Part shown: positions 15,444 to 17,266 of the stretch, piece after piece
Layout of the letters: each line of letters begins with the position of its first letter
Position numbering within the stretch: the first letter of the stretch is position 1
NCBI GenBank assembly: GCA_020431405.1
Contig: JAGQIK010000178.1
Coordinates: forward strand, 1 to 39,994
Source: Myxococcales bacterium
Lineage (GTDB): Bacteria > Myxococcota_A > Polyangia > GCA-2747355
Direction: 5' to 3'
DNA length: 39,994 bases
Program-made: the position numbers and the translations under genes
Notes under the pieces: generated by a model
Seen by the model: the letters and a program-made list of their open reading frames with translations, nothing else
What the model was told of the DNA's origin: nothing
Databases searched by the model: none

Positions 15444-15523
15444 GCGCCGACTATAGATGCTGATTGATGGTGCTCGCCACGGGCGGCTGCGGTGATAATC
15501 GCGCCGACAACCAAGGAGCCGCC

Positions 15524-16651
15524 ATGAGACTACACGGCCTCATCGAGATACGACCCCACGGGGACCAGATGCTGCGCTCGCCCGGCGCGTGGAACCGCTA
15601 CCAGGGCGCCTTCGGCAACCAGATGGACCTCAACGCCCGCCAGGTGCAGACGTCGCTGGCCGCCGCCACGCTGGTCGAAGCGGCGCGCGAGGCGCTGACG
15701 CGGATCGGCGTGACCAACGCGGTCTCGCTGAGAATCGACGACCACGTGCTGTACGAGGACCTCTACGGCACGCCCGACGACCTCTTCGACATGATGATGG
15801 TCTTCCGGGAGAACGCGCGCTTCTTCGGCGGCGGCTTCCGCACGCTGCATCTCGTCGTCGAGCATCGCGAGGCCGGCATGCACATCGTCGTCGAGGTCGC
15901 CGCCAGCGGCGTGCACCGCGTCGGCCAGCCGGCGGTGCGTGTCATCGTCGGTGCGCGCCCGCTCGAGTTCGTGCCGCACCCGCACGAGCCCGCGCACGTC
16001 TATCGGCAGCGCGTCGAGCCGATGATGCGCATGGCCGCGCGCTTCGAGCACTACCCGCACCACTTCGAGGCGTTCGTGCACCGCCTCGCCGACGCGCTGG
16101 CCTTCGCGCTGCCCGAGGGCGACGTGGCGCTGCGCTACGCCGGCGCCAAGGTCGAGCAGCCCTTCCGCGGCCAAAGGCGACGCCGCCGCAGCGCGACCGT
16201 CTACGACGACTTCTACGATCCCTACACCTACTACTACGCCTCGCCCGTCGACGACCTCTACACCGCGCTGTTCTGGGGCGCGATGATGGGCTGGGGCATG
16301 ATGCCGCACTACCACATCGTCGATTACTGGGGCGCTGACCTCGGCTGGGCCGACACCTACGTCTACGACGACTTCGATGACTACGTCATCGACGACTTCC
16401 TCGAGTACGACGACTACGACGGCGTTGCAGAGGTCTACGACGGCGGCGCGGTCTACGACGACGGCGGCGGCTACGACGACGGCGGCGCGGTCTACGACGA
16501 CGGCGGAGACTACGACGACGACGGCGGCGGAGAGTACGACGACGGTGGCGGCGCCTATGAAGGCGGCGGCGGAGACTACGACGACGGCGGTGGAGATTAC
16601 GACGACGGCGGCGGCGACTACGACGACGGCGGCGACGATCGCGACTGGTAG
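15524..16651 (+). CDS. Unknown protein with Asp/Tyr/Gly-rich repetitive tail
   Basis: A 375-residue protein without signal peptide. Residues 1-215 form an alpha/beta-looking domain (RLHGLIEIRPHGDQML, MMMVFRENARFFGGGFRTL, HIVVEVAASGVH) that I cannot assign. Then comes RRRRRS and a Tyr/Asp-rich stretch (YDDFYDPYTYYYAS), a short hydrophobic Met/Trp/Gly segment (ALFWGAMMGWGMM, about 247-259), and from residue 305 a low-complexity tail built from YDDGG units. The tail is strongly acidic and could bind calcium or metals or be disordered. The start at 15524 is set by AAGGAG (15513-15518); an earlier ATG at 15464 lacks support. Only 15 bases separate its stop from the predicted selenoprotein gene, so both are probably one transcript. 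Confidence 0.8.
   Translation: MRLHGLIEIRPHGDQMLRSPGAWNRYQGAFGNQMDLNARQVQTSLAAATLVEAAREALTRIGVTNAVSLRIDDHVLYEDLYGTPDDLFDMMMVFRENARFFGGGFRTLHLVVEHREAGMHIVVEVAASGVHRVGQPAVRVIVGARPLEFVPHPHEPAHVYRQRVEPMMRMAARFEHYPHHFEAFVHRLADALAFALPEGDVALRYAGAKVEQPFRGQRRRRRSATVYDDFYDPYTYYYASPVDDLYTALFWGAMMGWGMMPHYHIVDYWGADLGWADTYVYDDFDDYVIDDFLEYDDYDGVAEVYDGGAVYDDGGGYDDGGAVYDDGGDYDDDGGGEYDDGGGAYEGGGGDYDDGGGDYDDGGGDYDDGGDDRDW
16436..16648 (+). repeat. Low-complexity YDDGG-type coding repeat
   Basis: About 71 codons of imperfect repeats (tac-gac-gac-ggc-ggc words, variants with gtc or gag) encode the acidic tail. Unit spacing is irregular (5-9 codons), so this is degenerate rather than a perfect tandem array. Confidence 0.9.
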
Positions 16652-16666
16652 CCGACGCGCATTCCC

Positions 16667-17266
16667 ATGAGCGACCACGACCCAGCTGCGACGCCCGATC
16701 CGAGCGACGCGCGCGCCTGCAGCATCGCCACCTATAGCCGACCCGACAGCCTCGCCGTCGGTGACGTGGCGCCGTCGCTGCGCCTCGAGCGGCTCGACGG
16801 CCAAGGCCACGTCGCGCTCGACGCCGTCGACGAGGGCGGCCGGCCGCTGCTTTTGCTGTTCGGCAGCTACACCTGACCGCCGTTTCGGCGCCAGGCTGGC
16901 GCACTACAGAAGATCTTCGACGACCACGGCGCCGCGGCGCGCATCTTCATCGTCTACATCGCCGAAGCACACGCCACGGACGAGTGGCAGGTCGACAGCA
17001 ACCTCGAAGACCGCGTGCTGCTCGTGCAGCATCGCGATCTCGAGGCGCGCCGCGCCGCCGCCAGCGCGATGAGCGCCGCGCTCGGCCTCACCATCCCGCA
17101 GCTCGTCGACGCCATGGACGACGCGGCGAGCCACGCCTTCGCCGCCTGGCCCGAGCGCATCTTCATCATCGACGCCGACGGACGCCTCGCCTACTGCGGC
17201 GCGCGCGGCCCGTGGGGCTTCGCGCCCGACGAGGCGCGCGCCGCGCTCGAAGCGATGCTCGCCTGA
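16667..17266 (+). CDS. Predicted selenoprotein, iodothyronine-deiodinase-like (in-frame TGA = Sec70)
   Basis: One continuous frame of 200 codons with a single internal TGA at 16874-16876 (codon 70) and a terminal TGA at 17264-17266. Upstream of the internal TGA the sequence reads LLLLFGSYT; downstream it continues PPFRRQ, FIVYIAEAHATDEWQ, VDAMDDAASHAFAAWPERIF and GARGPWGF. These are the landmarks of iodothyronine deiodinases in the same order, with the internal TGA exactly at the Dio active-site selenocysteine (FGSxTUP). The fold is thioredoxin-like; bacterial relatives are presumed oxidoreductases, not hormone enzymes. It has no signal peptide. A hairpin suitable as a bacterial SECIS lies 11 bases downstream of the TGA. 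It is probably co-transcribed with the acidic-tail gene. A nonsense mutation is the alternative, but conservation on both sides makes it unlikely. Confidence 0.87.
16888..16902 (+). promoter_or_regulatory. Candidate bacterial SECIS hairpin
   Basis: GCGCCA (16888-16893) pairs perfectly with TGGCGC (16897-16902) around a GGC loop; with one pair open the loop is AGGCT. The loop starts about 18 bases after the Sec TGA and has G in its first or second position, which fits the general rules for bacterial SECIS elements. Binding by SelB is inferred. A competing CGCCG-TTT-CGGCG hairpin (16878-16890) is too near the TGA. Confidence 0.55.

Follow-up and report, generated by a model that had tools for sequence, protein, structure and literature searches.

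The locus raises two questions: whether an in-frame TGA codon within a deiodinase-like gene of a Myxococcales bacterium specifies selenocysteine (Sec) in place of termination and, if so, what kind of enzyme is formed. Selenocysteine is a rare amino acid; the deiodinases of animals activate or inactivate thyroid hormone. The window, i.e. the whole stretch of DNA that was analyzed, comprises the 39,994 nucleotides of contig JAGQIK010000178.1. Comparison of its sequence with those of relatives indicates that the gene at 16667-17266 very probably encodes a selenoprotein in which the TGA at 16874-16876 is read as Sec, a reading to which we assign a probability of about 0.93. An earlier note on this DNA had proposed a bacterial deiodinase-like selenoprotein, and the proposal is supported by conservation of the TGA in the family, by the Sec genes of the organism and by a SECIS-type hairpin.

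The gene and its reading frame

The features of the gene are the following:

16667-17266, plus strand: predicted deiodinase-like selenoprotein gene, an ORF of 199 amino acids with a predicted Sec at residue 70 and the stop codon TGA at 17264-17266
16874-16876, plus strand: in-frame TGA, the predicted selenocysteine codon (U70)
16964-16987, plus strand: codons for EAHATDEW, the loop-D active-site segment (E100, H102, D105, W107)

The frame runs through 199 codons from the ATG at 16667 to the terminal TGA at 17264-17266 and contains a single internal stop codon, in the context FGSYT-U-PPF. The claim of one TGA between FGSYT and PPF, at the Sec site of deiodinases, was confirmed by its location at residue 70, and translation likewise placed the motifs claimed downstream of it, EAHATDEW, VDAMDDAASHAF and RGPWGF, in frame 3' of the TGA. 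The third-position GC of the ORF is 0.88 upstream and 0.92 downstream of the TGA and, because it is high on either side, one coding frame crosses the codon. A standard annotation ends at the TGA, such that the gene is lost, and probably the same applies to many of its relatives.

The preceding gene stops at 16651, 15 bases 5' of the ATG, and shares its frame with the deiodinase-like ORF. This adjoining gene (15464-16648) has a long, repetitive C-terminus rich in Tyr, Asp and Gly; no Pfam match was obtained for it.

Family, fold and active site

Profile searches were performed with Sec read as Cys. The earlier note had suggested alignment with deiodinase-family profiles, and PF00837 (T4_deiodinase) matches residues 30-196, i.e. 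across the TGA, with an E-value of 2e-34 and 119.3 bits relative to a gathering cut-off of 27. NCBIfam NF038285 (deiodinase_rel) matches residues 30-195 with E 4e-45 and 154.7 bits, under its curated cut-off of 250; only the C-terminal half of this 347-position model is matched by the window protein. Among PDB sequences, the only relatives are mouse Dio3 (4tr3/4tr4; E 2.6e-23) and Dio2 (9h48; E 6.6e-21), and both alignments run through the Sec site. An AlphaFold2 model built on the family alignment reached a pLDDT of 84 and a pTM of 0.81. Its best Foldseek matches are Dio2 9h48 and Dio3 4tr3, with an identity in the fold alignment of ~30-35%, well ahead of the ResA/thioredoxin and peroxiredoxin folds.

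The proton relay and loop D of Dio2 include S127, T129, Sec130, Y157, E160, H162, W167 and H182 (PMC11592359). The counterparts in the window protein form a complete set, S67, T69, U70, Y97, E100, H102, W107 and H122, and R180 occupies the place of Arg275 of Dio3. The window protein, whose remaining cysteines are C18 and C177, lacks a second cysteine that many members of the family share (...CM.K...). Inspection of residues 1-30 by eye for an N-terminal membrane segment revealed no hydrophobic stretch; several relatives (L016, L019-L023) possess an N-terminal hydrophobic segment.

According to these comparisons, the product would be a soluble, single-domain selenoenzyme with a thioredoxin fold that belongs to the deiodinase family (PF00837). 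The selenolate of U70, aided by the network of Ser67, Thr69, Tyr97, Glu100, His102 and His122, may attack the substrate; candidate targets are a peroxide and the halogen substituent of an activated aromatic ring. A cellular thiol reductant would then reset the selenium, such that the selenol cycles between the reduced and the oxidized (or Se-halogen) state, as proposed for Dio and the peroxiredoxins.

The name deiodinase denotes homology, and we know of no iodothyronine substrate in bacteria. General selenol redox or peroxidase-like chemistry is, with modest confidence, the probable function, and a peroxide-type role appears somewhat more likely than true reductive dehalogenation, which is a less likely possibility. 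The chances are about even that the selenoprotein acts as a peroxiredoxin-like peroxidase devoid of dehalogenase activity. This view draws on an additional match to the AhpC-TSA profile (E 1e-7), on the thioredoxin- and peroxiredoxin-like folds that rank next behind the two Dio structures, and on the fact that bacteria are not expected to contain thyroid hormones (PMC1088965), but in both sequence and predicted fold Dio is clearly closer than the peroxiredoxins, and the loop-D residues of deiodinases are retained. The genes around the ORF in the window provided no functional hint. A conserved gene neighborhood was not found across 12 relatives, in which no Pfam family occurs in more than 3 of the 56 neighboring genes.

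Conservation of the TGA codon

When 379 genomes of the phylum were searched, 51 had a PF00837 match, in most cases with exactly one TGA. The genes of the relatives were picked by a UPPF-type motif, and UxxC forms in the phylum would thus be missed. Among the 32 genes collected in this way, 31, including that of the window, are of the TGA form; the 30 other genes that carry TGA in FGSxT-U-PPF, among the loci that were read, stem from 28 further genomes within the phylum and from Acidobacteria bacterium Mor1 (Acidobacteriota). The sole Cys form among the 32 motif-collected genes (L046, from genome G374 of the same class) reads FGNFTCGPF and lies within an 882-codon frame. Orthologs were thus found with either Sec-type TGA or Cys at the site, as the earlier note had demanded of them. 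No relatives were found in viral contigs. Since the PF00837 match crosses the TGA and the same column is TGA in 30 other genes, the codon does not occur within the frame by chance.

Were the gene a decaying pseudogene, TGA would have replaced a Cys codon by mutation while the rest of the gene stayed intact. The step is small, as TGC and TGT are one base away from TGA and a Cys form exists in one genome of the class, but the identical TGA in 30 other genes and the intact motifs and codon composition 3' of the TGA render such an origin very improbable. The argument of the earlier note, that a random nonsense mutation is unlikely to fall at this site, is borne out by the TGA at the same position in these genes together with intact coding on both sides.

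Of the 39 genomes of the phylum in which a TGA-form match was obtained, 38 contain selA, a count that is approximate because a small number of these matches (e.g. G308, G205) are weak, versus 212 of the 340 others (Fisher p = 7e-7). The sole TGA-form genome without a selA match (G192) is ~85% complete.

Some loci deviate from the common arrangement. In one relative (L034, G282:C238), two Sec-type deiodinase-like genes face each other, with ~50 bases between the matches, and a similar facing pair in G006:C473 includes one frame without TGA. Genome G380 (same family) contains a divergent deiodinase-like frame (L050, ~1350-2148) with TGSFT-U-SPY and EAHP, preceded in the same frame by a CxxCH-rich, cytochrome-like stretch, which is possibly a fused or variant selenoprotein. 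A peroxiredoxin-like frame of the same genome (L051, near 1500) contains GFTUPFC (UxxC) and is probably a different selenoprotein.

A SECIS-type hairpin downstream of the TGA

The TGA is followed by a SECIS-type hairpin:

16888-16902, plus strand: predicted bacterial SECIS hairpin with the stem 16888-16893/16897-16902 (GCGCCA/TGGCGC) and the loop GGC at 16894-16896

The loop lies 17 nt past the TGA on a 6-bp stem, and the folding energy is -10.1 to -10.4 kcal/mol. The published bSECIS model specifies a loop of 3-9 nt with a G in the first two positions, a stem of 4-16 bp, a distance of 16-37 nt from the UGA and an MFE <= -7.5 kcal/mol (PMC13188914), and the window hairpin falls within all four constraints. 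Taken alone, it is no stronger than expected from synonymous recoding (P = 0.36) or dinucleotide shuffles (z = 0.17). Across the family, hairpin strength relative to synonymous recoding amounted to a mean z of -1.9 over 31 genes. In an alignment of 20 sequences, two pairs of the stem vary at both bases yet remain paired, and the window sequence shows the double, compensatory change in each case; none of the 500 shuffles and none of the slid registers reached the covariation score of the alignment. Stem position 14-30 is not paired in the window sequence. Because the window hairpin by itself is not significant, the case for a SECIS element rests on the family and on the compensatory changes. 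Maintenance of the hairpin by such changes is a further argument against a pseudogene, as is the Sec machinery described below.

An Rfam scan of the region revealed no SECIS family; matches to CRISPR-DR28 and to a mycobacterial sRNA were weak, under the cut-off, and were taken as chance.

Selenocysteine machinery of the same genome

The assembly to which the window belongs comprises 11.23 Mb in 733 contigs and is ~96% complete. The Sec machinery predicted by the earlier note was found in its entirety: selA (553 bits), selB (353 bits) and selD (359 bits), all above their curated cut-offs, and selC, the tRNA-Sec gene (68.9 bits), which ARAGORN identified as SeC with the anticodon tca. Two other genes of this genome contain an in-frame TGA at their Sec sites, selD (CAGUASKL) and the gene of the formate dehydrogenase alpha subunit, FdhA (L064, contig C274; HQCAATUHAPT). 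Judged by its gene content, the organism is able to decode UGA as Sec. SelB and Sec-tRNA(Sec) would bind the hairpin and insert Sec at codon 70, in place of termination.

Any form of read-through yields the full-length protein, such that TGA might instead be a sense codon, in another genetic code or by means of a near-cognate or suppressor tRNA (e.g. for Trp or Cys). However, the deiodinase-like gene itself ends with TGA, which therefore still stops translation in this genome, a canonical tRNA-Sec is present, and the three TGA sites examined in the genome (DIO, SelD, FdhA) are all classical Sec sites; decoding of this kind is as improbable as the pseudogene. Least probable of all is a sequencing or assembly error, since in spite of the fragmented assembly it would have to fall on the one conserved Sec codon, with a SECIS-like hairpin after it, and the same codon occurs in many independent assemblies. 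These three alternatives (pseudogene, alternative code, sequencing error) were rejected on the basis of the conserved TGA, the Sec machinery and the gene's own TGA stop, in favor of Sec insertion.

Relation to known deiodinase-like proteins

A 2005 study of the Sargasso Sea described bacterial deiodinase-like proteins that contain Sec or Cys and suggested a redox role for them (PMC1088965), and the selenoproteins were counted again in the GOS study of 2008 (PMC2398784). Because they have been described since 2005, the window gene is not the first of its kind but a further example of the known bacterial deiodinase-like selenoproteins, with which it has in common PF00837, Sec at the same active site, a bacterial SECIS just past the UGA and a predicted redox role. 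A literature search found no paper that combines deiodinase, Myxococcota and selenocysteine. Reviews of 2022 and 2026 give the bacterial deiodinase-like motif as UxxC; by contrast, the window protein and its 30 relatives, a set picked by a UPPF-type motif, have UPPF, as do mouse Dio2 and Dio3.

With the animal enzymes (mouse Dio3 4tr3/4tr4, Dio2 9h48) the window protein shares FGSxT-U-PPF, EAHxxDxW, QHR/AHR, the ERI/ERV segment and (R/K)GP, as well as the fold and the same set of Ser, Thr, Sec, Tyr, Glu, His and His. It differs from them in that its gene contains a bacterial SECIS and the protein has no N-terminal membrane segment. In a phylogenetic tree, a branch with a support of 69/12 separates the window protein and mouse Dio2/3 from the other sequences, at a point where long branches meet. 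A topology test rejected neither the placement of Dio with the membrane-anchored bacterial group (p-AU 0.53) nor that of the window protein with the same group (p-AU 0.20). The complete active site of the animal type, with UPPF, loop D, His122 and Arg180, might mean that the protein is a genuine bacterial enzyme for the reductive dehalogenation of iodinated or brominated aromatics and also lies close to the bacterial source of the animal deiodinases, a combination that we consider quite unlikely.

As the family is common in the phylum and its active site is of the animal type, its members may serve as small, soluble bacterial models of deiodinase chemistry with real Sec and of the origin of the animal deiodinases.
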